Below, piece by piece: positions 8,705-42,206 of a DNA stretch of 64,000 bases (position 1 is its first letter; each line of letters starts with the position of its first letter). The position numbers were made by a program, and so were the translations under genes. The notes beneath the pieces are model-generated. The model was not told where the DNA came from and made no database searches. It saw only the letters and a list, made by a program, of their open reading frames with translations. The stretch spans positions 62,001-126,000 of the forward strand of contig JAFKAC010000020.1 in NCBI GenBank assembly GCA_025766275.1. Reading direction: 5' to 3'. The DNA is from Lactarius indigo (taxonomy: Eukaryota > Basidiomycota > Agaricomycetes > Russulales > Russulaceae).

Positions 8705-9210
8705 TGTCACGTTTCTATTTGCATGGACTGTACGAGTTCGAAACCCTTACTGTACCGGTTGCAGCTACGGCGGTAAGGTAGATTAGTTGCGGACTTACGA
8801 TAGGTGATACGAGCACGATAGGAGATATGGTACGATTGCTGACTGATGACCGACGCCACTAGTACAGGTACTAGTAGTCTTAGGGTTTACGCTGTTTCTG
8901 CGATACGTTGGACGCTACTTACTGTGACTCATGGCAGCGCTTCAAAGCCTGCTAGAATGTGTATTTAAACTGTCTTGTGAAGACCAAGATACGCCATCTT
9001 GGTCTTCTTGAATCGTCACTTGTTTCTTTCTTCTCTTCGCCCGCCTTCGCCATATTTACAGGAACGACAGACTTGCCGGTGTACCTCCGCGTATTCACTA
9101 AGGCAAAGGCTTGGACCTTCGAGTCTTCAAGTCAGCAGAAGTCGCTACATCGCTAAGTGTTACCCGCCACATTCGAGCTCAAGTCGAGCTAACGTCGTGA
9201 CGACGTTACA
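8705..9210 (+). repeat. 5' LTR of element A
   Basis: The 506 bp LTR starts with TG and ends with CA. It has TATTTAAA at 8962-8969. A perfect 12 bp inverted repeat with a 5 nt loop (8979-8990 and 8996-9007) straddles the predicted transcription start. Confidence 0.97.
8962..9006 (+). promoter_or_regulatory. TATA box and predicted start of element A RNA
   Basis: TATTTAAA at 8962-8969 is 34 nt before ATCTTGGTCTT (8996-9006). That 11-mer is the exact reverse complement of the primer site at 9213-9223, so it is predicted to be the first 11 nt of the RNA. Confidence 0.65.
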
Positions 9211-9212
9211 TT

Positions 9213-9223
9213 AAGACCAAGAT
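9213..9223 (+). other. Predicted self-primer binding site of element A
   Basis: AAGACCAAGAT starts 2 nt after the LTR and pairs over 11 nt with the predicted RNA 5' end (8996-9006), with mismatches immediately outside on both sides. This is the Tf1-type self-priming geometry; no tRNA match was recognised. Confidence 0.65.
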
Positions 9224-9229
9224 CCCATC

Positions 9230-11290
9230 GTGGCCGTAACAACCAGAGATCAGTGGACGAGCTTTCGTCCGTATTCAATTCCCCGGAGAGGAGAGCGGAA
9301 CGTCCCTACGCGCTTTTTACAAGCTGCTAGTTGGAGAGAACGACAGGAAGAAACAGGATACTTCGTAGAATTTAACGGACCGACAAGGTTCCGCCCAGTT
9401 GAGTTTAACTTCGATCACCTGTGCTGGGTGGAGGTTACGTGGAACCCCATAGAATCCCAGTGGGACATAATACGACCAGCCGGACCCAGATACCGCTGCG
9501 ACATCGACGCCCGAGAACTTAACGACAGATCAGATTGGGGCCCGATCGACGGACAAGTACGAGAACACTCAACTGGAGAAGTAGTGTCAGAAGAAGAAAG
9601 CGAGCAGAGTCAAGGAGAAAGTGAAGGACGAGAGCCAAACCAGACAGAAACTAGCGGAGGAGCTATACAAGACCTCCTCGTAGAGCGAGCTGAGTCCGCA
9701 CATATTACAGAACCAGAACCAATTCACATTCGATCCCCAGCTATCATGGCCACAATAACGCGTGCCATGGAAGAAGTCGCCATGGAAGAAGCGAGAGTAA
9801 TACAGCACGAAGCAAGGAACATCATCCTGCCCATTGACCCAGAAACAGGCATACGTATGACAGCGGATGACGCCGCAATCTTCAGGGCAATAGGGTCAGA
9901 TAGAGGAGACCCCCCATCAGAACGACGACCAGCAATGGAGCTACCCCCGGGAATAGGGGGGCCGGGAAGTGACCCACCACCGCCACCGGGAGGAGGAGTC
10001 CCGTTTGACCTACGACGAACTGAACCACCAAGAGGACCGCCTCATGCCCCACCCGGTGGTGGAGGAGGCGGAGGTGGCGGAGGTGATGGAGGGGGAGGCG
10101 CGGAGGGTCGAGGACACCCCAGCGAGAAATTAACCGGCGAGCCACCCTCTATCTTTGACGGGGATCGACTTAAAGTCGACCAATTCCTCACACAGTGGCA
10201 TGTTTATTGGGGTATGAACTTGGACGCCCCCATCATGCGCAACGATTACAGGAGATGCCTCCTGTTCCTCTCATACATCAAAGGCGGAGCAGTCAGCGAA
10301 TGGGTCCTATCCTTCCTGAACTGGCTCAATCGACAAATACAACGAGGGATCAGTCCCTACACTCGAGGCTTGTGGGACGCCGTAGCCGACGGCTTCAGCC
10401 AGAGGTTTGAAAATACGCTGGAAAGAGAGCAGGCACAAGCCGTATTACGAAAAGGCTTCAAAATGGTGGGGGAAGACATTGACAAGTACGTCAATGATTT
10501 CGAGCAATTAGCACGGAAGGCTCATTATCACCTCAATGAACCGCAAACGATCGACCTATTCACGTCGGGTTTGCCCAAGGAACTGTTCAAGAACGCATTC
10601 CAATTCGACGAGCCGACAACGTTCGACGAGTGGAAGAGGGCCGTCCTCAAACGGCAGAAGAATTATATTCACCTCAAAGCCAGGCTCAACGAATACAAAA
10701 GCACGACAGCCCCGAAGAAACAAACCGGCAATGCAGGGTGGGCGCTCCCACAAAACCTCCCGCAAACGAACCCATGGGCCATGGATACGTCGGCCGACCG
10801 CGCCAAGGTGTGACTGGCCGGGTCAGAAGAGATCGACTTCAACAAACTACCCCACCACGATTGGCCAACACCGCCATTTCCACCACGAGGAGGGCCGGGA
10901 TCCAGAGGATGAGGAAGAGGCGGGTCTAGAAGGGACCTAAGGAACGTCCTCTGCTATAATTGTCACGCTCCCGGACACCTCTCACGAAACTGCCCGCACC
11001 CCCGACAACAGAGACAGTGGCAAAATGCCCCATCCAGTAGCAGAATGACTGAAACCTCCTGGCCGCCGCAAGGGCTGGGATCTCCGGGCCCGATATCTCA
11101 ATACGAACCATCGCTGCAGGGGTACGCCACACCAATGTCCAGCGCGACGCCCGCACCACAGATCAAAGCGGCAAAAACGGCAGGAGAACAGGCGAAGGAA
11201 TGGCTGACACAGGTGGCCAACAGTACGGACGAGGTAAAAGACCTCATACTACAAGATTTGTGGGGAAAGGAGGGTTTTCAGAACGCCTGA
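9230..11290 (+). CDS. gag: Gag of element A, non-AUG N-terminal extension, two in-frame TGA codons
   Basis: The frame opens after the TAA at 9212. The first plausible start is GTG at 9230 (A at -3, G at +4); the first AUG in any frame is the in-frame ATG at 9746. The 172-residue extension resembles those of B and D in a Gly-Tyr-x-Val ... Pro-x-Glu pattern. A Pro/Gly-rich stretch (around 9930-10120) precedes the capsid-like region (from about 10130, FDGDRLKVDQFLTQWHVYWG). A CCHC knuckle follows (CYNCHAPGHLSRNC, near 10960). TGA codons at 10811-10813 and 10910-10912 interrupt the same frame before the knuckle; both fit CGA to TGA changes. The frame ends at 11288-11290 after the frameshift site. 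A full-length Gag would need readthrough or an intact helper copy. Confidence 0.85.
11272..11278 (+). promoter_or_regulatory. Predicted -1 frameshift site, element A gag/pol
   Basis: GGGTTTT is set as G-GGT-TTT in the gag frame, a canonical X-XXY-YYZ heptamer. It lies 9 nt before the gag stop, in the short overlap where the pol frame is -1. Confidence 0.6.
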
Positions 11291-14200
11291 ACCCGTCAGT
11301 CTGGGTGAGGGCTTTACAATGTAATTCTGTAATTGTGACAACGCGCTATCGATCTCTACGAATTCCAGTGACGGTCCATACGAATTACCAAACGACTGAA
11401 ACCAACGCCTTGGTGGACTCCGGAGCCACCGACAACTTTATCAAACCAGGAATGGCAGCGCGGGCAGGAATCCCAATAAAGTCATTGGAAACACCTCGCA
11501 AAATATGGAACATAGATAACACGGAAAACAAAGCTGGGTTGATCACTCATTATGTCAACTTAGAAGTGAAAACACGCGGACAGGTTAAGAAAATGACCTT
11601 CTTGGTCACCGACCTCGGAAGTGAAAACATGGTACTGGGTTACCCATGGCTGAGTGCCTTCGAACCTACAATCAGTTGGGCGACGGCAACCATGCATCCG
11701 GATATGCAACCAGTGGTTCTGGCCACCACCGAAGAATTACTCATCACAACTACAATACGAGCCCTAATTACAGCAGAGAAAGAAGCGATCGAACAAGAGT
11801 TAGAGGAAGAATCGACCTTCTTACGAGCCACCACCTCAACGGAGTTGGCCATATCCGCCAAGCAACAGCAAACGGCAGCCGTGCTGCCGCCGGTATATGC
11901 AGAATACAGCATGCTGTTTAACGAGCAGGCCTCGCACCGTTTCCCTCCGTCGCGACCCTGGGATCACGCGATCGACTTCAAACCAACGGCACCCGCAGCT
12001 ATCGACTGCAAAATATACCCCATGACGCAAAAAGAGGAAGGGGAGCTAAAGGAATTCCTAGATGAGAAGCTGAAGCAGGGGTATTTACGCCCCTCTATCT
12101 CCCCGTACGCCTCGTCCTTTTTCTTCATTAAAAAGAAGGACGGAAAACTACGCCCGGTACAGGACTATCGGGTGATCAACTCGCATACCATTCGCAACCA
12201 ATACCCCCTACCGCTCATTCAAGACCTCATCCTCGACCTTAGTAACGCCCACATCTACACGAAACTGGACATTCGCTGGGGCTATAACAACATTCGCATT
12301 CGCGACGGTGATCAAGAGAAGGCAGCCTTCAAGACAAAATTCGGACTCTTTGAACCCACGGTCATGTTTTTCGGCCTTACCAACTCCCCTGCCACCTTCC
12401 AAGCGATGATGAATCACATCTATCGCGACACGATCGCGAAACACGAACGGCTTGGCACCACGATACGCGTCTACATGGATGACATCGGTATCGCTACTCA
12501 CTTTGATCACGACTTACCGGCTCACATAGCGGCTGTTCGCGACGTCTTGCACGTCGCCGCCGAGCATGACCTCTACTTCAAACTTGAGAAATGCCTCTTC
12601 CACCAACCGCGGATGGATTACCTGGGGGTAATCCTTGAAAAGGGGGTAACTCGCATGGATCCCGTAAAAGTCCAAGGCATCAAGGATTGGCCGACGCCAA
12701 CGAAGGTCAAAGATGTCCGATCATTCCTCGGATTTTGCAACTTTTACCGACTTTTCATCCGCGGTTTCGCAACTCACGCCAAGCCACTTACCAAACTCAC
12801 GCGGAAAGATGAAGAATGGCGATGGACGGAAGACGAAGATAGGGCCTTCAAGACCCTTAAACGCTTGGTGACAGAAGAACCGGTGTTGGCACACCCAGTG
12901 CTCCAAGATCCGTTCGAGCTAGAGGTCGATGCCTCCGGATACGCGGTGGGCGCCGTATTGCTACAGCGAAAATTTGACGGAAAGCGACACCCCATAGGCT
13001 ACTATTCGGCCACGCTCTCAGAGGCCGAGCGGAATTATGACATCTACGACCTAGAACTGCTCGCAATAGTCAAAGCACTACGAAACTGGAGGCCGCTGCT
13101 TGCGGGAGCCCCACACAAAATCAAGATCTATTCGGATCACCTCAACCTACAATATTGGAGGTCACCACAAAAGATCAGCAGGCGGGTTGCGAGGGAAGTA
13201 CTCGAACTTTCAGAGTACGACTTCGAGATTCACCATATCAAAGGAAAGAGCAACGGAAGAGCGGATGCACTATCAAGACGCCCGGATTACGACCAAGGAA
13301 CGGAAGACAACAGTCAAGTTGTCGTACTACCCCCCGAAGTCTTCGTAAGAACGCTCAACACCGCGCGAACTTTCACGGCGAACCCAAACCTGCTACAACC
13401 ACGACATCAGCAAGACAACGAAGTGATCAAAATGTGGGTGGACCCCCATCGTCTGAAGAAGATCGAGGGAGAATGGTACAAAGATGGCAGGTTCGTGATA
13501 ACTGGGCCGGCATCTACGTATCGAGTACTGATACACGACCACCACGACCTACCGATACATGGACATCCCGGAATCGCGAGAACGCAACGAATCCTGGAAC
13601 GACATTATTGGTGGCCGCGAATGCGAAGAGATGTATACGAGTACGTACAAGGCTGCGCGGAATGCCAGAGAAACAAGGTCAACACCAGGCCCATACGGGC
13701 CGCATTATACCCTATTACACCGGAACTAGAAGCGACGCCCTTCCAGACTGTCGCCATAGACTTCATTACCAAGCTTCCGCCGTCAAAAGGACATGACAGC
13801 ATACTCACGGTTACAGACCACGACTGCAGCAAGGCCTCTGTCTTCATCCCCTGCCGAGAAGAAATCACCGCAGAAGAGACGGCAGCCCTGTACGTCACTC
13901 ATGTATTCAAACGTTTCGGACTACCGCGCAAGTGTATCAGTGATCGAGACCCCCGGTTTGCGTCAAAATTCACTAGAGAAGTATGCCGCATCCTGGGCAT
14001 CCAGCAAAACATATCCACAGCGTACCATCCGCGTACCGACGGGCAATCGGAGCGCACCAATCAATGGCTGGAGCAGTATTTGCGCTTCTGGGTCAACGAG
14101 CGGCAGGACAACTGGGTCGCTTACCTACCAATCGCCGAATTCGCGCATAACAACTGGCCACATGAGCACACGAAACAATCACCGTTTCAGCTCTTGATGG

Positions 14201-15999
14201 GGTACAACCCGCAAGCGGATTGGACTGATAAGCCATCCCCCCTTCCTCAGGTGACAAAACGGCTGACGCAGCTAAAGGAGGCTAGGGAGAACGCCCAGCA
14301 ACTCATAAAGAAGGCGCAAGAAGCATGGGTCCGCAACAAAGATACGCCCAGATTCAAAGCGGGAGACCTCGTATGGCTAGAAGGCAAGCATCTTCGCACC
14401 AATCAACCAACGGCGAAATTAGCGGCGCGACGCCACGGACCGTTTCGAGTGACACAGGTGATGTCCCCCTACAACTATCGATTAGAACTTCCCACGCAGT
14501 GGAGCATCCACCCAGTGTTTCACATCGATCTTCTCACACCATACAAACAAACTCCTCTTCACGGCGAAAGCTTCGCACGCCCGCCGCCCGAATTGGTTGA
14601 TGGAGAAGAAGAGTACGAAGTCGAGGCCATTCTAGACTCTCGGCGTTTCGGCAGGGGAAGACGCCTCCAATATCTGATCAAATGGAAGGGGTACCCAGAC
14701 TCGGAGAACCAGTGGGTCAACAAAGAAGACGTCTTCGCACCGGAAGCACTCCGTCTCTATCAGGAAATACAAGCGCGCGGGAGAATGGTTAAAACGAGTG
14801 CGAACTGTGCTCAGGAAAGTCATTCCCTCTTCGTTCGATCCATCACTTCGATGCCCACTTCTCCTCTCCGACATGTCACACAAGCAGCACTCCTCGACTC
14901 CCTCGCCGAAGACGCCCGCGCCCTTCTGGCTGAGGACGACGACACCGAAGTCCCGAACACTCAGCTCACCCCATGGACACCTCCTGCGCCAGCAGAGGGG
15001 CCTATCACCGCGCAAGAGTGGGCCCACGTCATCACAAGATTCCCAGACCCAACCACCGCTCTGGACGACGAGCAAACCGTCGTCCACGTCTTCCGAGATG
15101 ATCATGGTGAGAGAGAGCCCATCGCCGCTATCCCCCCAAGCGACGACCTCATCGGCGTTCGCGGAGTTTTCCTGAGCAACAACCAGCGTTCAAGCGCTGA
15201 TGGAGTACGAGTTGGAGGGTTGGAGGAAAGTAGCAGCGGCGTGGCAGAAGGAGCAGCTCGACTCAGCAGCGGCCCGACTGAGAGAGATGCGAGAGCGACG
15301 GCAGCGATGGCGGCAGCTGAGGCTGGCCATGACGACGAAGATTACTACCCGTCAGCACATTCCTTCTTACGAACGAAGCGCGACGCTGATCATCCCGGCG
15401 TCACGCCATGGCTCGTCTACACCGACGGCTCCCCCATGTATCGAGGACGTGTGCGCGTGCCAGGTGCCGCCGACCACCGTCCTTTCACCGCAGCCGACGA
15501 CCCCGCGCACGTCATTGCGCCTGAGGGGTTCCGGGCGAACCGACGACCCCATTACATTCGATACCCCATCACCGGCCCCGACGGAGTAGAGAGGGACGCG
15601 TCGCATGTCCAAATTATCGGAGGGGCGGATCCCATGATACTGGGAGTCATACCGGGCTCGCCACACGTGTACGGTAAGCCCTTCTATGCCGAACCACACG
15701 TATCCGCCGCACTACGCCCCACGTACCCGCACGAGGACTTGGTCGTCTTTGAGGCGGACAAGATCACCGACCGGGCGCTCAATCGCATCAACGACGAGTC
15801 CCTCACCGCCGAAGTCACGCGTTTCCACGCGGCCAGCTACGAGTTGGACCGACTTCGCGCTCGGCTCAGCCAAATCCGCGCCATGATCGAGTGCGCACAA
15901 GACGACCGGCGCGACTCCATCTATCGGCTGGAGCGTGCCACGGCGTTGGAGCGCATTGCCGAAGAACAGCAGGGCTGGCCGGCACGGGACTTTCGATGA
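11278..15999 (+). CDS. pol: Pol of element A: protease, RT, RNase H, integrase, chromodomain, tail
   Basis: This is an uninterrupted frame in -1 relation to gag; it is open from at least 11200. Visible in order are protease LVDSGATDNFI (about 11410), RT with YMDDI (about 12470), RNase H (from about 12910, LEVDASGYAVGAVLLQ), the integrase zinc region HDLPIHGHPG ... CAECQ (13540-13670), the DDE core (TVTDHD about 13810, SDRDPRF about 13940, QSERTNQWLEQYL about 14045) and the chromodomain (about 14608-14770, YLIKWKGYPDSENQW). About 400 residues follow, with a GVIPGSPHVYGKPFY motif and a helical end. This is the counterpart of the tail in B-D but without their zinc knuckles. Pol looks intact, while gag carries two stops. 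Confidence 0.95.
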   Translation, partial: SERLNPSVWVRALQCNSVIVTTRYRSLRIPVTVHTNYQTTETNALVDSGATDNFIKPGMAARAGIPIKSLETPRKIWNIDNTENKAGLITHYVNLEVKTRGQVKKMTFLVTDLGSENMVLGYPWLSAFEPTISWATATMHPDMQPVVLATTEELLITTTIRALITAEKEAIEQELEEESTFLRATTSTELAISAKQQQTAAVLPPVYAEYSMLFNEQASHRFPPSRPWDHAIDFKPTAPAAIDCKIYPMTQKEEGELKEFLDEKLKQGYLRPSISPYASSFFFIKKKDGKLRPVQDYRVINSHTIRNQYPLPLIQDLILDLSNAHIYTKLDIRWGYNNIRIRDGDQEKAAFKTKFGLFEPTVMFFGLTNSPATFQAMMNHIYRDTIAKHERLGTTIRVYMDDIGIATHFDHDLPAHIAAVRDVLHVAAEHDLYFKLEKCLFHQPRMDYLGVILEKGVTRMDPVKVQGIKDWPTPTKVKDVRSFLGFCNFYRLFIRGFATHAKPLTKLTRKDEEWRWTEDEDRAFKTLKRLVTEEPVLAHPVLQDPFELEVDASGYAVGAVLLQRKFDGKRHPIGYYSATLSEAERNYDIYDLELLAIVKALRNWRPLLAGAPHKIKIYSDHLNLQYWRSPQKISRRVAREVLELSEYDFEIHHIKGKSNGRADALSRRPDYDQGTEDNSQVVVLPPEVFVRTLNTARTFTANPNLLQPRHQQDNEVIKMWVDPHRLKKIEGEWYKDGRFVITGPASTYRVLIHDHHDLPIHGHPGIARTQRILERHYWWPRMRRDVYEYVQGCAECQRNKVNTRPIRAALYPITPELEATPFQTVAIDFITKLPPSKGHDSILTVTDHDCSKASVFIPCREEITAEETAALYVTHVFKRFGLPRKCISDRDPRFASKFTREVCRILGIQQNISTAYHPRTDGQSERTNQWLEQYLRFWVNERQDNWVAYLPIAEFAHNNWPHEHTKQSPFQLLMGYNPQADWTDKPSPLPQVTKRLTQLKEARENAQQLIKKAQEAWVRNKDTPRFKAGDLVWLEGKHLRTNQPTAKLAARRHGPFRVTQVMSPYNYRLELPTQWSIHPVFHIDLLTPYKQTPLHGESFARPPPELVDGEEEYEVEAILDSRRFGRGRRLQYLIKWKGYPDSENQWVNKEDVFAPEALRLYQEIQARGRMVKTSANCAQESHSLFVRSITSMPTSPLRHVTQAALLDSLAEDARALLAEDDDTEVPNTQLTPWTPPAPAEGPITAQEWAHVITRFPDPTTALDDEQTVVHVFRDDHGEREPIAAIPPSDDLIGVRGVFLSNNQRSSADGVRVGGLEESSSGVAEGAARLSSGPTERDARATAAMAAAEAGHDDEDYYPSAHSFLRTKRDADHPGVTPWLVYTDGSPMYRGRVRVPGAADHRPFTAADDPAHVIAPEGFRANRRPHYIRYPITGPDGVERDASHVQIIGGADPMILGVIPGSPHVYGKPFYAEPHVSAALRPTYPHEDLVVFEADKITDRALNRINDESLTAEVTRFHAASYELDRLRARLSQIRAMIECAQDDRRDSIYRLERATALERIAEEQQGWPARDFR

Positions 16000-16016
16000 G
16001 CCGGGGTCTCATGCTG

Positions 16017-16028
16017 AAAAGGGGGTGA
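16017..16028 (+). other. Polypurine tract of element A
   Basis: AAAAGGGGGTGA directly precedes the 3' LTR and would prime plus-strand DNA. Confidence 0.7.
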
Positions 16029-16534
16029 TGTCACGTTTCTATTTGCATGGACTGTACGAGTTCGAAACCCTTACTGTACCGGTTGCAGCTACGGCGGTAA
16101 GGTAGATTAGTTGCGGACTTACGATAGGTGATACGAGCACGATAGGAGATATGGTACGATTGCTGACTGATGACCGACGCCACTAGTACAGGTACTAGTA
16201 GTCTTAGGGTTTACGCTGTTTCTGCGATACGTTGGACGCTACTTACTGTGACTCATGGCAGCGCTTCAAAGCCTGCTAGAATGTGTATTTAAACTGTCTT
16301 GTGAAGACCAAGATACGCCATCTTGGTCTTCTTGAATCGTCACTTGTTTCTTTCTTCTCTTCGCCCGCCTTCGCCATATTTACAGGAACGACAGACTTGC
16401 CGGTGTACCTCCGCGTATTCACTAAGGCAAAGGCTTGGACCTTCGAGTCTTCAAGTCAGCAGAAGTCGCTACATCGCTAAGTGTTACCCGCCACATTCGA
16501 GCTCAAGTCGAGCTAACGTCGTGACGACGTTACA
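16029..16534 (+). repeat. 3' LTR of element A
   Basis: This 506 bp copy shows no difference from 8705-9210 by eye and is followed by the second CCTCA target duplication. Confidence 0.97.
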
Positions 16535-17088
16535 CCTCACGCCACCACATCGGGATGTCAGTTCCAGAAAACAATGGTATGACCTACTGGCGTCTGTAGG
16601 AAGCTACCGAAATTGCAATTTGAAGCTGCCGGGTCTTGGACTTTCACTTGAGTATGGTCCTGGTTCAGTAGTTGGAGTGTTAGCAGCAATGTTGGAGCAT
16701 GAAGTGGAGCACTTTGAAGGAGAAAGAGTGTGCTATGTATATTTTATGAGGGATAGAGTGCACGAGTGGGCTAAGGTGCCAGGGAAATCTTGGATGTCAG
16801 TAGACTGCTATCCGGTAGCGTAGAGAATTCCAGTGCTTTCTCCTATATATATTTCCTTCCCTCAGTGAAGTCAGACTTCTATGTCCCTAGCAATGAGCAT
16901 AGGTGAAATGGGGCATAGCCATTGGAGCAGATCTATGGGGTTGGCAGCTCATCTGTTGGCTCAATGTTTTGCAGATGCGAAGAAATGTTGTTTTTTGCAG
17001 CAGCTCACCAAATGTCTCAAGCGTGTACATCTTCCCAAGAAAAGTGAAATGGTGGTCTGTAGTGGCCAAGAACCTGAGTTTGCCTATT

Positions 17089-26721: not shown

Positions 26722-26739
26722 CTACACTCCTCATACCAA

Positions 26740-29250: not shown

Positions 29251-29517
29251 ATAAAAGGCAAGTGAGACATGTCTCAGTTTTAACAAAAGTGAGACACCTG
29301 CCATAAAAGGGTGCATTTAGCCCAAGTATAGTAGTAATAAAGACTTATAAGGACAATGAGTGTCTCATTGTCTCACTTTGCACTAGGAGAGAATCTTAAG
29401 GCTCCTAGTGCACAGCAAGTCCAAGAAAGGGAAAGCCAAGAAAGGAAAGACTTTCCTGCGAACGCAAGTGTAAGTAAGAAACTAATAGTAAAGTCAAAAC
29501 AAGTCCAGTCCGTAACA
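29251..29517 (-). repeat. Truncated 3' LTR of element D
   Basis: It matches 36452-36718. The differences I see are GTGCACAGC against GTGTGCAGC and CCGTAAC against CCATAAC, all explained by CpG decay of GTGCGCAGC and CCGTAAC. It stops at 29251, where the KDZ array begins. Confidence 0.93.
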
Positions 29518-29531
29518 TTACCCTCCCTTCA
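29518..29531 (-). other. Polypurine tract of element D
   Basis: On the minus strand GAAGGGAGGGTAA directly precedes the 3' LTR. Confidence 0.65.
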
Positions 29532-29554
29532 GAGTCCTTGTCGTCTCAACATCC

Positions 29555-32500: not shown

Positions 32501-34477
32501 GAGCTCTATATCAAATTCGGAGAGTTCCAGGACTTCTTGTGCTACCCATCGGCTGATCTTGTGTGGTTCTTTCCAATATTGGAGGTTTGCATGGTCTGTG
32601 TACACCACTACCTTGTGAGAGGAGCCTGCTAGATATGCCCGCCAGTGTCATAGAGCCCGCACAATGGCTAGCAATTCTTGATCATAGATGTCATAATTTC
32701 GTTCTGCTGGTCCAAATGTCTGGGAGTAGTAGGCCACTGGGTGGCGAATTCCTTGGTTATCCTTTTGGTAAAGCACCCCTCCATTGGCAAATCGGGATGC
32801 ATCCACTTCCAATTCAAATTGTTTTTCCAAATCTGGTTGAATGAGCACAGGTTCCTTTCCAAGCAGGGTCTTGAGTGTGTCAAATGCCTTTTGACAGTCT
32901 TCTGTCCATTCCCATTTGGTGTCCTTTTTGAGTAGGTTGTTAAGGGGACGGGCAATCATGGAGAATCCTCGGATGAAACGGCGATAGAAATTTGCAAATC
33001 CTTGAAAGGCACGGACTTCTTTGGTTGTTGTTGGAGTGGGCCAGTCACGTACACCCTGAACCTTAATCGGGTCCATTCGGACCCTCCCTTTTTCCAATAT
33101 GACACCCAGGTACTCTATAGACCTAACCTCAAAGGCGCATTTCTCCGGTTTTAGGTAGAGATCATGTTCCTCTAGGCGTTCTAGAACTTGATGGACCACC
33201 TTGCGGTGTCTTTCCAGGTCATCAATAGTGGCAATAAGGATGTCATCCATGTAGATTATGACTTCTCCAGTTAGGAGCATGTCACGGAATATTACGTTCA
33301 TCATGGTCTGAAATGTGCTTGGCGAGTTGGTGAGTCCAAAGAACATGACACGTGGTTCAAACAGCCCCTGATTGGTTTTGAAGGCCGCCTTCCATTCATC
33401 TCCTTCTTTGATCCGGATGTTGTTATAACCCCATCGGATATCAAATTTGGTAAACAACGCTGCATCCCGGACCTTGTCAATCAATTCTGGGATTAAGGGG
33501 AGTGGGTATCGATTCTTGACAGTGTACTGGTTGATCCGTCGGTAGTCTTGGACAGGGCGAAGCTTTCCATCTTTCTTTTTGATGAAGAAGAAGGGAGACG
33601 AGTATGGGGATTTCGAGGGCTGGATATATCCCTTTTCAAGGTGTTCATTGAGGAATTTGGTAAGGGCTTCATTTTCATCACGTGTTAGAGGGTATATTTT
33701 GCAATCAATAGTGGCTGGGGCATTTGGAGTGAGGTCAATGGCGTGATCCCATGACCTGGTTGGTGGGAATCGGTGGGAGTTCTCTTCACTGAAGACCTTC
33801 TGATGTTGTAGGTACTCCTTGGGGACCATTTCTTCTAGCGTTCTTTCAGTTTGATCTCGTGCCTTTTGCGCCAATTCTGAGGCCACCGTGGTTTTGCCAA
33901 TGACCTCATCTTGGGTAAATCTGAGATAGAGTTCATCTCCTTCCTCATACCCGCACTCTTCCAGGAACGTGCTCCACATTTTCCGGATGTGGATCTTTGG
34001 TTTGGGGGTGTCTTGTTTTTGGAGTCCTTGGGTAGTGATGATGACAGGGAGGTGACTGGTGTCGATGGTGGAGTCCTTCCAGTTGCATTGGGGTTCAAAG
34101 GCAGCGAGCCAGGGGTATCCCAGGATCATTCGTTCTTCCCCTAGATTTGTCACCAGGAACCTCATGGGTAGTTTCTTGGATCCTGATTGGACATCTAGCA
34201 TGGAGTATGCCGTTAGTTCTCCTGCCTTATTAAGGGTTCCGTCGATATTCCAGATCTTTTTTGGGTTTGACAGGGGTATCGTCCCTATCCCCATTTGCTT
34301 TAGGAGTCTGGGGTCTATGAAATTGTCCGTAGCTCCAGAGTCTACTAGGACGTCTTGATCAGCCGTTTTGTGTGCAGTTTCCAGGTGTACAGGGACTTTC
34401 AAGGATCTATATTGGCTATATTGTACACTGGAAATGTTTAAAGCTCTAGCCCAGGCTGCCAGGTTCGAGCCTACGAA
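29555..34477 (-). pseudogene. pol: Pol of element D with two in-frame TGA codons
   Basis: One frame in -1 relation to gag, beginning near GFFVGSNLAAWARALN. Protease VLVDSGATDNFI, RT with IYMDDILIA (about 33250), RNase H, integrase zinc region (CAACQANKVN about 32080), core (TVTDHD, SDRDPRF, QSERTNQWLEQYL) and chromodomain (about 31120-31010, YLIKWKGFPDSDNSW) are visible. TGA at 32650-32648 (AL-stop-HW) and 31570-31568 (TT-stop-IPPF) replace residues that fit Arg (CGA). The tail after the chromodomain has PFFPN, GCMGRGQPVYGEPVY, a helical segment and four zinc knuckles: CWRCDSRFHRSFNC, CYHCQSAGHWPNKC, CGKCFRNDPGHAEIRC and CWKC...HRC. It ends at 29555. Confidence 0.93.
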
Positions 34478-36045
34478 AAATCCTTCTCAGCAAAGGCTTT
34501 CTCTATGAGCAGTGCTCGCACTTCCTCACTCTGTGCCATCAGAGTCCCCCACATCTCATTTGCTAGTTCCTCTTTGATCTTTGTGGTGGATGGTGCAGAG
34601 GGTGTAGTTGATGCTTCTGCGAGTTTGGCTGGTTTGTCAGGGCAGTTTCACGATATATGCCCCTGTTTCTTGCAACGGAAACAGCGCCCTTCTGCTTGGA
34701 GCTTCTGTTTTTCGGTTTCAGTGAGGGCTGCTCTTCCTGCAGCTCCTCTTTGAGTTCTTCCTATGTCCATCACATTTGGGTCACGTGGTTTGACTTTAAA
34801 GGCATTGTTCCATTGCCCTTTTGTGAATCCGGCTTTAGTTTCCTTTTTGATTCTGAAGCGATTTTGGAGATTGATGAAGTCTTGATGGTGCTTTCTGGCT
34901 GATTGGGTCCATTCTTTCCAGTCATCTGGGTGGTCGAACTGTATGATGTTCCTGACCAATTTTTCAGGTAGACCCCGTGAGAAAATATCCAGGGTTCCTT
35001 CTTCATCTGCACCATATCCTGCCTTCTTTGCAAGGGCGGCGAACTGAGCAATATAGGTATCAAGGTCTCCATTCTCCATTTTGACTGCTTGGAGTGCCTT
35101 CTGTGCCTTCTGCTTCTCCACAACGTCGGTGTAAGCAGCCTGGAAGCGATCTAGGATGGTGATCCACAGGTCTTCTTCTGTTGTAGCCCATCCTCCAGCA
35201 AGTTCATCGGTAAGCCAGTCACTTTGTTCCATAACCCAGTCATCAACCAAGTCTCCTCGTATTAGGGAGAGGAAGACAATGCATCTGAGATAGGGGTTTC
35301 TCATTTGCTCGATTGATCCATTGAGGGCCCGGTAGAAGGTGAACTCTTTTAGGAATTTCTTGCTGTGGGCTCGGTCTCCAGTGAATTCTTTTGGTGGTAG
35401 GCCTGTTAATTTGTCTCCGGCAGGGGGGGGGGCTAAAGGTGGGGTTCTTCCAGCAGGGATTCCACCGCCTCCGTCTCCACCTCCGCCTCCTCCACCTCCA
35501 CCTCCACCTCCACCTCCTCCTTTGCTACTGCCACCTCCACTAGGGGTGTGGGTGATTGAGGTGTTGATTTGTGTGGCTGTGCTTGTCATTCTAATGCTTG
35601 AGTTTGTTGGTGTGCGAGCACCTGAATCTATGGGTTCTTGTGGGGCTAAAGAGGGGACACCTGACGTAGCTTCCACTGATGCAACAGGGGATTGATGTTG
35701 ATCCGAATCCTGAGCAGGTTCTTCTGTATCTGAGTCGACAACTATGCCAACTGGGTTATTTCTATATGGACCAAGTCCAAATTCTAGTGGTACTGGTTTG
35801 ACAGAGAACCACTTGTGGTCTTTGGATGATTGTGCGATGACTACCCAAAGTCGTTTGTCTTCTATGTATTCAATAGGAATATATCCGTTGTCTTCTTTGC
35901 TCCAAACGTAATATCCTTCAGTTTCGTCGTAAGTTTTCCAGATGGCTACTCCCTTGATGTTGTCAGAGAGATCGTCTTCTGTTCTTCTGGTGATGAATTC
36001 TGGTTTGAACTGGGAATGGCTCCTGCTTCCTAGTTTTGAAGCCAG
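34471..36045 (-). pseudogene. gag: Gag of element D, CTG-initiated extension, one TGA
   Basis: CTG at 36045-36043 (A at -3, G at +4) begins a frame homologous to the extension in B (SRSHSQF, EGYYVWSKEDN, PIEYIEDKRLW, KPVPLEFGLGP). No AUG occurs in any frame from the predicted RNA start (36305) until the in-frame ATG at 35589. A poly-Gly segment (about 35530-35450) precedes the capsid-like region (FTGDRAHSKKFLKEFTFYRA). The zinc knuckle CFRCKKQGHIS-stop-NC is broken by TGA at 34650-34648, where relatives have Arg. The frame stops at TAG 34473-34471, just after the GGATTTT frameshift site. Confidence 0.88.
34477..34483 (-). promoter_or_regulatory. Predicted -1 frameshift site, element D gag/pol
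   Basis: On the minus strand GGATTTT is set as G-GAT-TTT in the gag frame, 3 nt before the TAG stop; pol continues in -1. Confidence 0.55.
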
Positions 36046-36052
36046 GGTGAAG

Positions 36053-36063
36053 AGACTCGACGT
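36053..36063 (-). other. Predicted self-primer binding site of element D (one mismatch)
   Basis: On the minus strand ACGTCGAGTCT begins 2 nt after the LTR. It pairs with AGACTCGACTT (36305-36295) at 10 of 11 positions. Confidence 0.5.
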
Positions 36064-36065
36064 AA

Positions 36066-36718
36066 TGTAACGTTACAGTAGGAACGTTCAGCTCGGCGTG
36101 AGCAAGTCTGGTCTTTCTATGTCAATGAGCGAGGATTCAGCCGATAATGGCAAGGTTTAAGTGGTTAACAAGGATCTCAGAGTATGACACAATACTCAAG
36201 ATGTGAGAGGAGTTCAGGGGTTCAAGAGGTTCGACGGTTCAGCAGAGAGTTACCCCAAGGGAATGGGAAAACAATGTATACTGTGATGGTAAAGAAGTCG
36301 AGTCTAAGGATACAAGCTACCTAGGGCCACGACTTATATAGAAAAGGGTTTGTTTGTGTGGAACAAACAAATGGCACAATCCGCAGCAAGCACGGGAAAA
36401 AGAAGAAAGTGTGCACAGCTATCCACAGTAAGTGTGAGAAGAAACAAGGATATAAAAGGCAAGTGAGACATGTCTCAGTTTTAACAAAAGTGAGACACCT
36501 GCCATAAAAGGGTGCATTTAGCCCAAGTATAGTAGTAATAAAGACTTATAAGGACAATGAGTGTCTCATTGTCTCACTTTGCACTAGGAGAGAATCTTAA
36601 GGCTCCTAGTGTGCAGCAAGTCCAAGAAAGGGAAAGCCAAGAAAGGAAAGACTTTCCTGCGAACGCAAGTGTAAGTAAGAAACTAATAGTAAAGTCAAAA
36701 CAAGTCCAGTCCATAACA
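36066..36718 (-). repeat. 5' LTR of element D
   Basis: This 653 bp LTR begins TGTTATGG and ends GTTACA on the minus strand. Its upstream flank is CACAA of the Plavaka-like gene. Confidence 0.92.
36295..36340 (-). promoter_or_regulatory. TATA box and predicted RNA start of element D
   Basis: TATATAAG (36340-36333, minus) lies 35 nt before AGACTCGACTT, the predicted RNA 5' end. Confidence 0.6.
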
Positions 36719-37337
36719 TTGTGCCTGTATCATCACGTTGGATGTGTAAGTCTCGGTGTACAGTCGCTCGTGCTTGTCTGGATGTAAGGGGTCGGGGCAC
36801 CAGTGCATCGTATAAGGTGTAAAATGGAATGATTCGGCTGCCTTTGATGCACACATGGATCAGATGATATCGGTAATCCGTCGATGGAAGAGCCGGTGTA
36901 TCGATAGCGTCGGGGTGTCATCCTTGGAATTGAATTGTTTGCCTTCTACTGGGAGGCAAATGTGGACGGTGGATTCTTGCCAGCCACTCCCTACCTGGAA
37001 AGGGTGCTCTCCATCCATAAGGTACTTGTCCAGGCGCACATTTTCTACATGTGTGCTGAAACCGGCTAAGTGCTTGGCATCGAACCTATCGTCTTGCATC
37101 GTCTTGGCCAGTAAGCTTGCATGTTCCTCGGATTTTGTATCCATCCCAGAGAAGTACGCGCCCATGTATATGGCAACGCTGAAGTTGGGAAATGGTGCAA
37201 ATGGGTCGTGGGATATCTCATGTATCACGCCTGTGGTGTCAGGGGGGCGCAGAGCGTCCAATGATGGTGAGTCACATATGAGGTCGAATCTCTCATCATG
37301 TTTTGGGACCCAGGTTGGGGCGTGCGTGTATCGTCTG
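36719..37337 (-). pseudogene. Plavaka-like transposase, middle fragment
   Basis: The minus-strand frame continues from the fragment at 60096 once element B and one GTCTG copy are removed, giving LGIFRRYTHAPTWVPKHDER and then CDSPSLDALRPPDTTG. Further segments are HDPFAPFPNFSVAIYMGAYF, LAGFSTHVENVRLDKYLMDG and GWQESTVHICLPVEGK. After a TGA at 36862-36860 (II-stop-S, fits CGA) come AESFHFTPYTMHWCPDPLHP and YTETYTSNVMIQAQ, where element D interrupts. This reads like proteins of Plavaka (CACTA-like) transposons of basidiomycetes, from memory of the family. The catalytic remainder is not in the window; it would be expected beyond the KDZ element, to the left. Confidence 0.65.
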
Positions 37338-37928
37338 TGTTACGAACTTTTGGCTTTTGTCTCTGATTTGCTATTTTCTTTGGACTCATTCTTTCTTTTC
37401 TCCATTCGATCCTCACCTTCACATTACGAGACCTGTATGACTACGCGGACACAACGTTTACCCGGCTCCTATCACGCGCTTTGCTTATCGTCGTTATCTT
37501 TCGATAAAGCTCGACATGTGTTAGTTTCCGTTCACTTCTTAATCACGCGCAAACCCGCGTGATTCTCCTTTACTCTTGATACAGACGTCCTTTGTTCTCC
37601 TTATGTCTCACCTTTTGTTCTCTGATAGGGAGTGGCAACTACACCCTTATTCGTATGGTATGACTCCACGCGTATTTTAGACCAGTACTACCTAGCTTGT
37701 ACAGTAGACTAGACTTCTTGTGTAATACTACACTCGTCTACGCGCAGTCTCCCGATTTCTGCTTTCGCTAGACCTTCGCGTCTTAGCCTCCCTCTATAGT
37801 CCAAGTGACATACGTCCTTGTGACTCTTGTGCATCATTCTTACTGAAGTCAAGCCTTTGAGCTTGGACTACCGATCGAACGACTGACTTAGTACAGGTTG
37901 TACTTAACGCCCCTGTAGTGGCGTTACA
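37338..37928 (+). repeat. 5' LTR of element B
   Basis: 591 bp, begins TGTTACGAAC and ends GCGTTACA. Short frames across it are not genes. Confidence 0.95.
37673..37716 (+). promoter_or_regulatory. TATA-like box and predicted RNA start of element B
   Basis: TATTTTAG at 37673 (TATTTAAG in the 3' LTR) lies 33 nt before AGACTAGACTT (37706-37716), the exact reverse complement of the primer site. Confidence 0.6.
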
Positions 37929-37930
37929 TT

Positions 37931-37941
37931 AAGTCTAGTCT
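37931..37941 (+). other. Predicted self-primer binding site of element B
   Basis: AAGTCTAGTCT, 2 nt after the LTR, is complementary over 11 nt to 37706-37716. Confidence 0.65.
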
Positions 37942-37946
37942 CCACA

Positions 37947-39611
37947 GTGGCTCTCACCAGCCGAAGCCGAACGCAGTTCGTCAAAGAGTACCTGGAGCGA
38001 CGCCCCCACGACGATCTAAGACCCTCCATCAAAGGGACCGCTCTTTGGAGAAACACTCCACACGACGAAGGGTACTACGTCTACGACCCCGACAAGCTCA
38101 CGTACGAACCAATCGAGTATATTGAAGACCAACACATTTGGGCCTACGTCGCCTACTCAGATTCAAAGCACTCCTGGTACTCATACAAACCTGTGCCAGC
38201 CCATTTAGGCCTAGGACCAGGAAAAGGACAGATCAGCGCCATCGAAGCCGATTCTGATATCGAAGAACCATCTTCCGAACCCGACCTAGACAACCCCACG
38301 CTCACGCCAACTATTCAACGCCCTGTGGACTTCGCATCATATGCCAACATGTCCACCACCCAACTCTCCACCACCCTCACCACCTTGCAACCAGCCACAG
38401 GCTCCTCGACAACGAATCCTGCAGGTAGTGGAGGACATCCTGTGGGAGGAAGTATGCCGACAAGCAGAGGAAGCGCTGTGGGAGGCGCAGGAGGCCATCA
38501 TGGAGGCGGTGTGCCTGGAAGTGGAGGCGGTGCGCCTGGAGGTGGAGGCGGTGTGCCTGGAGGCGGAGGCGGCACACCTGGAGGTGGAGGCAGCAGAGCA
38601 GCAGCAGGTCCTGCCGCTGGAGGACCTCCTCAACCAAATGAAAGACTTGGAGGAAATCCCCCACCTGAATTCACCAGAGACCGAGAGGCCAGTAGAGCCT
38701 TCCTTAATGCCTTCGCCCTTTATCGCGGAATGAACCCGAACGTTCAACAACTCACCCTCCCCTATTCCCACGCAATGACACTACTCTCTTACATCCGAGG
38801 ACCTCTAGTGGACGACTGGGTTGAAGAACAAATATGATGGTTGGCCGACCAACTAGCAGGAGGAGTGGCCATGAACGCCGAAAATCTATGGAACACCACA
38901 GAAACGCGCTTTATCCAGGCGTATACAGACACCACTCAACAACAGAAAGCCCGACACGCCATTCAGAATTTACGAATGGACAAAGAAGACATCGACACGT
39001 ACATAGCCAAATTTTCGAACTTGGCAAACAAAGCAGGGTACAACAAAGATGAAGCAACGACCCTCGAAATCTTCCAGAAAGGTCTCCCAAATGCGTTGGT
39101 CATAAACGCAATCAAGTTCCATCATCCCATGGATTGGGATGACTGGAAAACGGCAGTCACGCTCCAGCAAGCGGAATACTTGCTACTCAAGGACAGACTC
39201 ACGAAGGGAAGGACGGACAAGAAAGGAGGGGCCTCTCGCGACCAGTGGTTGAGCGCCCTCAGTAAAACCAGAGATCCGAATGCAATGGACGTTAGTCGCA
39301 CCTGCGCCAGGGCGGCAATGACGGACGACGAGAAGAAGCAACTCCAAAAAGAAGGAAGATGCTTCAGATGCAGAGGGCAGGGACACATCTCTAGATTCTG
39401 CCCTCAGAAACCAACAGCCACCGCCAAAGTCACAAACACCAGCGACCCCACCCCGACCACTGCCACTATTTCCATGACCGCCTCATGCCCCCTTTCAAAT
39501 GAGGAACAAGCCGATGCTCAGGTGGCAGCCCTATTTGCTCAAACCCCCGAAGTACGAGAACTAATGGTGGACAAACTTTTCGGGCAAAAGAAGGATTTTC
39601 TGAACACTTGA
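37947..39611 (+). pseudogene. gag: Gag of element B, GTG-initiated extension, one TGA
   Basis: GTG at 37947 (A at -3, G at +4) opens a 134-residue extension (LTSRSRTQF, EGYYVYDPDKL, PIEYIEDQHIW, KPVPAHLGLGP) that matches element D. The first in-frame ATG is 38349; the only earlier AUG from the predicted RNA start is out of frame at 38341. A Gly/Val/Pro-rich repeat (38500-38600) precedes the capsid-like region (FTRDREASRAFLNAFALYRG). TGA at 38835-38837 (EEQI-stop-WLAD) interrupts the frame. A CCHC knuckle (CFRCRGQGHISRFC, about 39362) follows, and the frame ends FLNT at 39611. Confidence 0.9.
39593..39599 (+). promoter_or_regulatory. Predicted -1 frameshift site, element B gag/pol
   Basis: GGATTTT is set as G-GAT-TTT in the gag frame, 9 nt before the gag stop; pol reads GFSEHLNLAAWARALK in -1. 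Confidence 0.55.
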
Positions 39612-39730
39612 ACCTGGCGGCCTGGGCTAGAGCATTAAAACTTAGCATGTACAATAGCAGATTCAGATCTATGTGAATTCCAGTACTTTTCAAATCTGCC
39701 CACACGACGGTCGAACGAAACGTCCTAATA

Positions 39731-40309
39731 TGTTATGATCCGACGCTTCGGACCTAAGTCACAGTATGTCTCCACCCTGCCTTCCCCCTTTTGTACTATA
39801 CCTTGTTACCAAAGGAGCTACTGTTACTAGTGGCGCTGTTTCTTTGATCCGAACTTCTGTTTACTCCGTTTAGTCTCTTTGATATTGTGTGGACTTGTGT
39901 TCATGTTGTTTGGAACCCTGTCCTATATAAACCTGTACCATAGACCGTAGGAAGCCAGACTTGGCTTCGTTTGCAATCTAGCAATCTTGCCTCCGTACTT
40001 TGGTGTGACCTCGCCTTATTCCTCTCTTCTTGTGCATCCCCTACCTCAGTCCCTAACCAGGACACTTCGAAGTCTTTGCAGTTGAACTATATCAACGCGT
40101 TACACCGGTTATACTCTGTGCACTAGCAAGATCAAGTGTAGAGAAGTGTTAGACACTTCGGACGAGGAGTCCTACATTACAGAGTAGTGCTGCACCTTGT
40201 GCCACACTTATATCACTCGTATTTCATAGCAATAAGACAACAGAGGTCTTCGCTTGATACTTGTGTGATTCAGAACCTTTAGAACCCACGCCCCTGCTAG
40301 GGCGTAACA
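39731..40309 (+). repeat. 5' LTR of element C
   Basis: 579 bp, TGTTATGATCC to GCGTAACA. The predicted RNA start lies in a small inverted repeat (GAAGCC at 39951 and GGCTTC at 39963). Confidence 0.96.
39924..39967 (+). promoter_or_regulatory. TATA box and predicted RNA start of element C
   Basis: TATATAA at 39924-39930 is 33 nt before AGACTTGGCTT (39957-39967), the exact reverse complement of the primer site. Confidence 0.65.
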
Positions 40310-40310
40310 T

Positions 40311-40321
40311 AAGCCAAGTCT
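40311..40321 (+). other. Predicted self-primer binding site of element C
   Basis: AAGCCAAGTCT, 1 nt after the LTR, pairs over 11 nt with 39957-39967. Confidence 0.65.
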
Positions 40322-40517
40322 ACAACTCCCAACACACCCAAGACACTACTGCCACACAGCAGAGTGGGCGACGATCCAAGAGGACGCATCAGCCAACAAC
40401 CAGACACTCCACAGAACCCAGAAACGACGGCATAGCCGGGCGACGGATCCTCCTTGACACAAGAGGCCGCTTCAGCCACCCCCTTACACAAATCAGCACC
40501 CAAGACAGACCACAATC

Positions 40518-42206
40518 GTGGCTAGCATCAGTGTCACCTTTGAATCAGACAACGATTGGACCCCAGTCACAACCAGAACACAAGACAACCTCCCACACCA
40601 CGTTAAAAGCAGTCAACTAGGAAAAGGAGCTCGCTGGGCCACAACATCAGGCAGACCACCTTGTTACAAGTGCCTCATCAAAGGCGAACTCAGACCAGTA
40701 GAATTCATCAACAACAACTGGTACATCCTCCGATACTTTCAGAATACATACCACACCAGAGCCATAAACATCACACCGCACAGATTTGCTGAAGGACTAG
40801 GCTGGTGGAACGAAGAAGACGAACAGAACCCAGAAACGCCCACACAACAATCATCAGCACCAAGAAACACTAGGGGAACATACGGACTACAACAAGACTC
40901 ATCAGGAGAAGAACCCAGCTCAGACGAAGCGGAATCACACTCAGAACTATCCCACTCCCCAGAACACCGTCTAGACATCACAGTACCCACACAAGCTTCG
41001 TCACAAGCCAGCCCCACTATCCCTATCTGGATAGAACCATCCCCAGCGGAAGAAGGATTCCCAGCCCCACTACCACCAATCAGATTGCCCTCCCCAGTCG
41101 AACCACCCCAGATCCCCATCACACCACAGCCAACACTTATCATGTCAGCCATAAACGCCACAGGTACTGGCACAGGTACCGGCTCAAGCACCGGAACAGG
41201 AGGAACACCAACAACGAGCTCAGGAGGACTCAAAGGAGCACCCCCTACTCCGTTCACCGGAGATAGAACAGAGAGTGGTCAGTTCAAAAGAGAACTACTA
41301 CGATACATCAAGTTAAATAGCGAGAATGAACTCATCAAAGAACCTTATGCACGGGTACTATTCGCCCTTACAATGTTCAAAGGACCCGGTGTACAGCTGT
41401 GGGTCAACCAAACCGAAGATGACATGGAAGCGGCACTAGCAGACCCCACCAAAGCCCTCACCAAAAATAGCAAAGATCTTTGGGACGGTTTTCTCGACAC
41501 CTTCGACAGAGACTGGACCGACACCCTAAACAAAGAAAGAGCCTATCAGAAGCTCATCAATTTGACGATGCAGGGTGGAGCGTTGGACAGTTACATCCTT
41601 GACTTCGAACACCTTGCAGGAATAGCAGGATGGGCAAGAGATGCCCCTGGGACGGTGGAATTCTTCAAAAGAGGACTACCCACAGGACTGTATCGTGCTT
41701 GCCTTATGCGAACCACCATCCCAAACACCATGGACGAGTGGCAAACCGCTGCCAGAGCAGAACACCAACGCTGGAAGCTACTAAAAGCCAGACCAGGGAA
41801 TAGAAACCCAGGACCAACCCAGAATGTCCACCAAGGACGACCAAAGCGAGACCCAAATGCGATGGATGTAGATGCCACCACCTCCACCCCCTTTAAGAAG
41901 CTTACTGAAGAAGAAAAGAAAGCCCTCATGAAAGAAGGACGCTGCTTCAAATGCAGACAGCAAGGACACATGGCTAGGAACTGTCAACGACAAAACACCA
42001 CCAACCAAACCAAAGCCAGAGCCACAGACACCCAAGAAGCGGACACTGCACCCCCATACACCCCAGAAGCAAGCACCTCATCAGTGGCTGCTACCACAAC
42101 CGAAGATAAAGTCTGACAAGCCCATGCACTCGTCCAAGGCATGACTGAGGATGAAAAGAGACGCTACTATGCCTTAGATCAGGATTTTTGCGATGCCGAC
42201 CTGTGA
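40518..42206 (+). CDS. gag: Gag of element C, GTG-initiated extension, one TGA
   Basis: The frame is open from 40458 without an AUG. GTG at 40518 (A at -3, G at +4) is the likely start. No AUG occurs in any frame between the predicted RNA start (39957) and the in-frame ATG at 41142, about 1.18 kb. The 208-residue extension holds RPVEFINNNWYILRYF and acidic Ser-rich sequence. A Gly/Thr-rich linker leads to the capsid-like region (FTGDRTESGQFKRELLRYIK) and a CCHC knuckle (CFKCRQQGHMARNC, about 41945). TGA at 42114-42116 (KV-stop-QAH) fits a CGA change. The frame then continues to the frameshift site and stops at 42204-42206. Confidence 0.9.
42182..42188 (+). promoter_or_regulatory. Predicted -1 frameshift site, element C gag/pol
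   Basis: GGATTTT is set as G-GAT-TTT in gag, 15 nt before the gag stop. The pol frame continues from the last T with LRCRPVRADREANSMYSV. Confidence 0.6.

Follow-up and report, generated by a model that had tools for sequence, protein, structure and literature searches.

Conserved GTG or CTG codons at the head of an in-frame Gag extension in self-priming gypsy retrotransposons of the fungus Lactarius indigo

RESULTS

Four gypsy elements with a long Gag frame

A 64,000-nt stretch of the Lactarius indigo genome (GenBank assembly GCA_025766275.1, contig JAFKAC010000020.1; C113:62001-126000 in our numbering), hereafter called the window, contains four gypsy-type long terminal repeat (LTR) retrotransposons. 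In each of them, the Gag reading frame continues far upstream of its first ATG and reaches back to a GTG or CTG codon. The labels A to D are those of an earlier note on this DNA, and positions are those of the window. Element A occupies 8704-16534 on the forward strand. Element B (37338-60090, forward strand) is interrupted by a copia element and by element C (39730-47679, forward strand), which is nested within it. Element D (29251-36720) lies on the reverse strand and its Pol is interrupted. The LTRs were mapped by self-comparison of the window and the leaders were read directly from the sequence. The 5′ and 3′ LTRs of A (8704-9210 and 16028-16534) show 100% identity across 507 nt, and those of B (37338-37928 and 59500-60090) and C (39730-40312 and 47097-47679) show 96.6% and 99.7% identity, respectively. 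In D, the inner end of the 5′ LTR (36066-36720, reverse strand) is approximate and the 3′ LTR is partial (29251-29519).

Directly after the 5′ LTR, each element carries bases that can pair with a segment within the LTR, over 11 nt in A, B and C and over a run of 9 nt in the window copy of D. In A, the internal stretch at 8996-9006 pairs with the primer binding site (PBS) at 9213-9223. The corresponding segments are 37706-37716 and 37931-37941 in B, 39957-39967 and 40311-40321 in C and, on the reverse strand, 36295-36305 and 36053-36063 in D. Because of this pairing and of its covariation (see below), the RNA start was placed at the self-primer, namely at 8996 (A), 37706 (B), 39957 (C) and 36305 (D). 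From these starts, the distance to the first ATG in any frame is 750 nt in A, 635 nt in B, 1185 nt in C and 716 nt in D; the earlier note had given the same lengths except for D (717 nt).

The further readings that the earlier note gave for these leaders were reproduced. The first AUG of the RNA is in the Gag frame in A (9746-9748), C (41142-41144) and D (35587-35589, reverse strand). In B, an out-of-frame ATG with C at −3 (38341-38343) lies 8 nt 5′ of the first in-frame Gag ATG (38349-38351). Upstream of the Gag ATG the frame stays open for 134-208 codons: 172 codons in A (9230-9745), 134 in B (37947-38348), 208 in C (40518-41141) and 152 in D (35590-36045, reverse strand). This Gag extension begins at GTG 9230, GTG 37947, GTG 40518 and CTG 36045, respectively, and each of these codons has A at −3 and GC at +4/+5. 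In A, B and D, the codon sits 5-14 nt past the duplex that primes reverse transcription.

Genomic copies used for comparison

The host genome (90.3 Mb assembly) was searched at the protein level with each of the four extensions as the query. At least 150 scored matches were listed per extension, from 1708 (A), 1540 (B), 234 (C) and 1554 (D) first-look candidates. In the D list, the first 47 rows are D and are followed by B-like copies at about 45% identity. We fetched 40 A, 40 B, 20 C, 6 D and 6 B-prime copies, spread along the ranked lists, and characterized them through leader, extension and Gag. The main set comprises 110 sequences (106 fetched copies and the four window elements); B-prime copies were counted separately. 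In three copies (L060 of B; L090 and L100 of C) the upstream sequence does not align at the self-primer, and the RNA start was placed by alignment only. These copies were omitted from the ATG counts and densities of leaders (their leaders have 2, 3 and 6 ATGs, respectively, one of the two in L060 being the fixed ATG at −8) and were kept in the counts of start codons, frames and substitutions.

The pairing between LTR and PBS is kept in most of these copies. At least 11 nt are kept in 40/41 A sequences (10 nt in L028) and in 40/41 B sequences (all but L060), and 11 nt are kept in 18/21 C sequences (not in L088, L090 and L100). Among the D copies, L101 and L102 have 11 nt, and L103-L106 have 4-5 nt. 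In two B copies, L050 and L063, matching changes are present on both sides of the pairing.

ATG triplets are scarce between the inferred RNA start and Gag

The window leaders contain 0 (A), 1 (B), 0 (C) and 0 (D) ATGs, and dinucleotide shuffles expect 5.2, 5.0, 10.0 and 9.0, respectively. Thus, the lack of AUG goes beyond chance, as the earlier note had claimed, although its expectation of 10-18 per leader was too high (about 8-12 by single-base composition). The same pattern was seen when ATG densities were compared along the copies. In A (41 sequences), the density per kb is 7.2 in the unique 3′ region of the LTR (U3), 0.6 from the RNA start to the start codon of the extension, 0.2 in the extension and 20.0 in Gag. 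The corresponding densities are 14.6, 0.3, 3.9 and 14.2 in B (40 sequences), where 40 of the 62 ATGs in the extension are the fixed one 8 nt 5′ of Gag, and 13.7, 1.0, 0.5 and 19.6 in C (19 sequences). In D (7 sequences), they are 14.5, 1.7, 2.5 and 19.2, the U3 value being that of the window copy alone because the six D copies were fetched without U3. Density therefore drops at the inferred RNA start and recovers at the Gag AUG, as selection by scanning ribosomes predicts.

Leaders free of any other ATG make up 32/41 in A, 23/40 in B, 11/19 in C and 3/7 in D. The earlier note had named ATGs in intact copies as evidence against its own proposal. Such ATGs are mostly, not wholly, absent from A; at least one other leader ATG is present in 17/40 B, 8/19 C and 4/7 D sequences, and 7/110 sequences have ATG at the start codon itself. 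The Gag ATG is present in all sequences (41/41 A, 41/41 B, 21/21 C and 7/7 D), and so is the out-of-frame ATG of B (41/41).

Out-of-frame ATGs within the extension were counted as well. The window copies contain 0 (A), 1 (B), 0 (C) and 0 (D) of them, and shuffling of synonymous codons expects 3.1, 2.8, 3.4 and 3.8, respectively. The depletion is significant in A (p =.012), C (p =.005) and D (p =.002). In the same test on the window copies, no out-of-frame ATG depletion was found within Gag. The window copies of A, C and D therefore have no AUG from the near-cognate codon to the Gag AUG, and that of B has one. Leaky scanning, and with it the production of two Gag isoforms, is supported mainly by this exclusion of out-of-frame AUGs.

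The out-of-frame ATG of B, which stands in a weak context, opens a frame that overlaps Gag (38341-38733, 130 codons in the window copy). In 34/40 sequences, this frame is open for 104-141 codons beyond the Gag ATG. Per-copy synonymous shuffles gave p values of 0.03-0.42, and third-position variation of B Gag is 0.157 within the overlap versus 0.402 later. From these sequence features, an overprinted protein is possible.

The extension frame is under coding selection and is closed upstream

In 110/110 sequences, the length of the extension is divisible by 3, and stops were found in only two copies (one each in L009 and L100). In contrast, the gap from the PBS to the start codon varies in phase: all three phases are found in B and two in A and C, whereas D has a constant gap. 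Ratios of nonsynonymous to synonymous substitution (dN/dS) were calculated as ratios of sums over pairs with dS >0.02. The values for the extension are 0.048 in A (820 pairs), 0.042 in B (820 pairs), 0.21 in C (199 pairs) and 0.30 in D (18 pairs), and those for the adjoining part of Gag are 0.064, 0.099, 0.077 and 0.246, respectively. When the same columns were read in shifted frames, the ratios were 2.0-3.1 in A and B, 0.8-1.0 in C and 0.5-1.1 in D. In A, heterozygosity at the three codon positions is 0.28/0.28/0.26 before the start codon and 0.04/0.02/0.26 after it. Thus, substitution in the extension is not neutral, a check that the earlier note had proposed. The signature of coding selection is strong for the A and B extensions. 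For C and D the case is weaker, because the C extension is less constrained than C Gag and because the C and D sets include much-changed copies.

In all 110 sequences, the extension frame is closed within the leader by a stop 5′ of the start codon, and no ATG in that frame lies between the two; in 36/41 A sequences this stop is 18 nt 5′ of the codon. Therefore, translation of the extension frame must begin at or near the GTG/CTG codon. The gap between stop and codon was also read for other near-cognate codons. In A there is one, an ATC directly 5′ of the GTG, and the copies have either T or C as its middle base. In the window copies of C and D, the gap contains AAG, AGG and ATC, and ATT and ACG, respectively.

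The start codon and its context

The start codon of the extension is GTG in 96, CTG in 7 and ATG in 7 of the 110 sequences. A has 38 GTG and 3 ATG (41 sequences), B has 40 GTG and 1 ATG (41 sequences), C has 18 GTG and 3 ATG (21 sequences), and all seven D sequences have CTG. A at −3 and GC at +4/+5 are present in 110/110, and alanine is the second residue in each of the four families. Other bases of the spacer are variable, heterozygosity reaching 0.54 in A (position −6) and 0.56 in B (position −1). At internal valine codons of A and B, synonym variation was seen in up to 0.90 of the rows. Of the six B-prime copies, four have GTG and two have ATG, and five have A at −3.

The only codon change within a family is to ATG, at the same position, and the ATG is preceded by C at −1 in 7/7 cases. 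Without D, ATG occurs in 7/75 sequences with C at −1 and in 0/28 without it. Although this sample is small, it is the pattern that CpG decay of GTG would give. The nearest sampled relative of an ATG copy is a GTG copy in 6/7 cases; for L023, it is the ATG copy L001 (91%).

The extension contains a domain shared by A, B and D and only weakly related in C

The earlier note had called the extensions of B and D homologous, and our comparison agrees (42% identity, E = 3e-38). By pairwise search, the A extension is related to those of B (E = 2e-8) and D (E = 4e-10), and the C extension is weakly related to those of D (E = 0.002) and A (E = 0.034). A joint alignment of 24 sequences contains four invariant residues, W34, Y43, P55 and W65 (B numbering). 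Model structures predict that the extension folds into a small β-strand-rich domain of about 85 residues and that an acidic tail, or linker, comes after it; the tail was modelled with low confidence and is probably disordered.

Neither sequence nor model searches matched the extension to a known family or fold. No Pfam or NCBIfam family was found, the single Pfam row obtained with C (E = 0.077) being at chance level. A search of protein collections with residues 1-130 of the long Gag of D gave no match at E ≤ 1e-3 among 41 candidates. When the alignment of the extensions was compared with viral contigs, 48 pattern matches were obtained and none was confirmed. In the four window copies, no hydrophobic or membrane segment is present in the extension (maximum 19-residue hydropathy, 0.14-0.49). 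If we may guess at a role, the long Gag could be a minor isoform with an influence on assembly, targeting or the choice of RNA.

A dual-start model and its alternatives

Pairing at the RNA start, absence of AUG, an open frame under coding selection, an invariant codon context and a frame closed upstream are present in the sequences themselves. From these features we infer initiation at the GUG or CUG, production of both isoforms and selection that protects the ratio between them. We consider it highly probable that the genomic RNA of A to D is a dual-start Gag mRNA, in which initiation at a near-cognate codon is combined with leaky scanning to the AUG. The steps would be as follows. The RNA would start at the self-primer within the LTR, as the pairing and its covariation suggest, and scanning ribosomes would encounter no AUG ahead of the near-cognate codon. 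Some of the ribosomes would initiate at GUG (A, B and C) or CUG (D) in the ANN-NUG-GC context. The long Gag thus made would carry the β-rich domain and the probably disordered linker at its N-terminus. The remaining ribosomes would leak past and cross the extension without meeting an AUG in any frame, except for the weak-context AUG of B. They would then start at the first good AUG and produce the short Gag. The earlier note's suggestion of an extended, non-AUG-started Gag is thereby supported; its two isoforms are suggested by the missing out-of-frame ATGs in the extension.

Several observations weigh against this model. The copies were ranked by similarity of the extension, so that intact extensions and kept frames are over-represented, and the D values come from 18 pairs, with 6 copies fetched out of at least 47 matches. 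AUG at the start codon (7/110, and 2/6 in B-prime) is at least tolerated, and one B-prime copy, L110, carries G at −3. Nearly all internal valine codons are invariant in C and D, and some are in A and B; the constancy of GTG/CTG in C and D is therefore uninformative by itself. The depletion of out-of-frame ATGs is not significant in the window copy of B (p =.16), and B keeps the conserved out-of-frame AUG at 38341. In C, dN/dS is higher in the extension than in Gag. Finally, the Gag AUG is conserved in 110/110 sequences but so are most methionines of Gag, and its conservation therefore says little.

The last of these points bears on the alternative that only the long Gag is made, with GTG/CTG as the sole start and the AUG as an internal methionine. 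The Gag AUG is conserved no better than most other Gag methionines, and in A and B the extension is constrained like Gag, both as this alternative expects. However, the lack of out-of-frame AUGs from one start to the other (not significant in B) would serve no purpose if ribosomes did not scan through. Moreover, a near-cognate start is leaky in rice tungro bacilliform virus (RTBV), where initiation at AUU is about 10% and 90% of ribosomes scan on (PMC5902531). We therefore regard exclusive production of the long Gag as unlikely. It is very unlikely that GTG is a decayed ATG and that active elements use ATG. The seven copies with ATG, and the two in B-prime, agree with such decay, but GTG is nearly universal in A despite leader divergence of about 15-20% and under strong purifying selection. 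Furthermore, the relationships of the ATG copies (only L023 is nearest to another ATG copy, L001) and their restriction to sites after C, small as that sample is, fit decay in the opposite direction, from GTG by CpG.

Since U3 contains ATGs, the extension frame might instead receive its start from an AUG further upstream, by way of splicing or of an earlier transcript start. For unspliced RNA, the in-frame stop in every leader, 18 nt off the codon in most A sequences, bars such an AUG, and no in-frame ATG follows the stop. The window leaders have no AUG ahead of the Gag region to splice from, and an upstream AUG would leave the invariant ANN-NUG-GC unexplained. This stop bears on unspliced RNA only, and the earlier note had named an AUG supplied by splicing as a possible refutation; on the whole, we consider an upstream AUG highly unlikely. 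Retroviral packaging signals are plausible near the PBS, and the region could accordingly be conserved as RNA, for packaging or priming, with an incidental open frame. In contrast to this expectation, three-base periodicity starts at the GTG/CTG codon, stops occur in just two copies, and the shifted-frame ratios in A and B are far above the in-frame values (in C and D, they are 0.5-1.1). Conservation as an RNA structure alone is thus hardly credible.

Class and Pol domains of the elements

Judged from their sequences, A to D are Ty3/gypsy chromoviruses with Tf1-type self-priming. In Pfam searches, Pol of A and C contains protease, reverse transcriptase, RNase H, integrase, SH3_Tf2-1 and a chromodomain. 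The same set was found in D, whose interrupted Pol was searched in three pieces; two of the domains, protease in D and the integrase core (rve) in C, score under the Pfam cut-off. One piece of B Pol was searched, and it gave reverse transcriptase, RNase H and the integrase zinc domain only. The chromodomain (PF00385) is at the C-terminus of integrase in A (1.1e-12), C (5.1e-15) and D (5.3e-16). Retrotrans_gag is above the cut-off in A only and below it in C and D; no match to it was found in B Gag, the frame of which is broken in the window copy.

Several other features of the window were observed. The A Gag frame (9215-10813) has 532 codons and ends early; many listed A copies have about 690. 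By eye, Pol of B (58173-59465) and the Pol ends of C and D have long tails past the chromodomain. These tails share a region with a 'Y.R...PFF' motif and Cys-rich, knuckle-like motifs, and the tail of A differs. A stretch inside B (50585-51076) is 79% similar to the A LTR and is perhaps a solo LTR of a related family. A tandem array of units of about 44 bp, in more than 40 copies (26850-29130), adjoins the cut end of the D 3′ LTR.

Other gypsy families in the genome

Four further gypsy families were read. In the family of L117 and L113 (C113:518400-523760), a single ATG is present in the 2780 nt 5′ of the Gag ATG, and about 2115 nt before Gag, between ATGs at 663 and 2781 of this stretch, are ATG-free. 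This leader contains a methionine-free open frame of 346 codons. The frame recurs in the genome (117 matches from 122 candidates, with 100% to about 55% identity over most of the query), and many of the matches have frames of 327-346 codons. Directly ahead of it, two hairpins with GAGT loops were seen by eye. In L114 (L114:293-1551; C241:109892-111150), about 1255 nt before Gag, between ATGs at 293 and 1551, are ATG-free and contain a methionine-free open frame of 239 codons; the Gag frame is open for 88 codons before its first ATG. The 239-codon frame also recurs, with at least 150 scored rows of 186 candidates, 85 of which span most of the query. In contrast, L115 and L116 are ordinary: no long methionine-free frame was found, Gag is open for 49 and 6 codons before its first ATG, and the ATG-free stretches ahead of the open Gag frame are about 390 and 375 nt, respectively. 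Thus, the methionine-free extension is not universal in the gypsy families of this genome.

On this reading of the two abundant families, near-cognate codons would serve as starts for whole accessory proteins (346 and 239 codons), and leaking ribosomes would go on to Gag. In A, B and D, pairing of the RNA ends could switch the isoform ratio as the RNA turns from messenger to genome. Taken jointly, the idea that AUG-free coding is a general, repeated strategy of gypsy elements here, with near-cognate-started accessory proteins and an isoform ratio switched by pairing, is tentative, and we put it somewhat short of an even chance.

DISCUSSION

The arrangement described here is nearly fixed in several high-copy LTR retrotransposon families of one fungal genome, and purifying selection on the extension is strong in the two best-sampled families. 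If the extension is translated, annotation of Gag from the first ATG removes a conserved domain. The families also provide a natural data set, with many replicates, on the context of near-cognate starts. They raise the question of why GUG is retained although AUG is one base change away.

The known primer length of Tf1 is 11 nt. In self-primed elements such as Tj1, a 5′ segment of the RNA acts as the primer and is complementary to the PBS (PMC4600332). A to D resemble Tf1 and Tj1 in that the RNA 5′ end is complementary to a PBS beside the 5′ LTR (PMC4600332). SH3_Tf2-1 within Pol of A, C and D is a further likeness. The pol frame of Tj1 is without a start codon (PMC5911963). No extended Gag of the present kind is reported in the available parts of a paper on Ty1 (PMC5408680) and of PMC5911963, and none was found for a fungal LTR retrotransposon among the open-licence papers listed, judged by their titles and abstract beginnings.

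To our knowledge, a Gag with a non-AUG extension is known only from certain gammaretroviruses and from PEG10, a mammalian gene that was domesticated from a Gag of the Ty3/gypsy sushi type. In murine leukaemia virus, the glyco-Gag starts at a CUG 264 bases 5′ of the Gag AUG (PMC3265304). A to D resemble it in having, on the genomic RNA, a non-AUG codon in good context that precedes the Gag AUG in the same frame and would extend Gag at its N-terminus. The earlier note had drawn this parallel; it holds for the mechanism but not for the membrane anchor. Glyco-Gag has a signal sequence and takes the secretory route, whereas the extensions of A to D have no hydrophobic segment and such a route is therefore not expected for them. 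They are also longer (134-208 codons), and their usual codon is GUG. In PEG10, CUG and AUG starts are both used on a single mRNA, as tested by mutation; however, PEG10 is one mammalian host gene with a 34-residue extension (PMC2800197).

In RTBV, ORF I starts at AUU and is followed by about 900 nt without AUG, through which ribosomes leak onward to later starts; in contrast to A to D, the products are separate proteins and do not share a frame, and ribosomes arrive at the start after a shunt (PMC5902531). Near-cognate starts are also used by fungal hosts. ACG, AUU and CUG starts were reported in Cryptococcus (PMC7049704). In Neurospora cpc-1, a conserved N-terminal extension begins at near-cognate codons as in A to D, but cpc-1 is a host gene with several alternative near-cognate codons and with AUG-started upstream open reading frames in its leader (PMC5487733). 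Thus, the dual-start logic was already known from glyco-Gag, PEG10 and RTBV. What the sequences support as new is its apparent near-fixation in high-copy, self-priming fungal chromoviruses.

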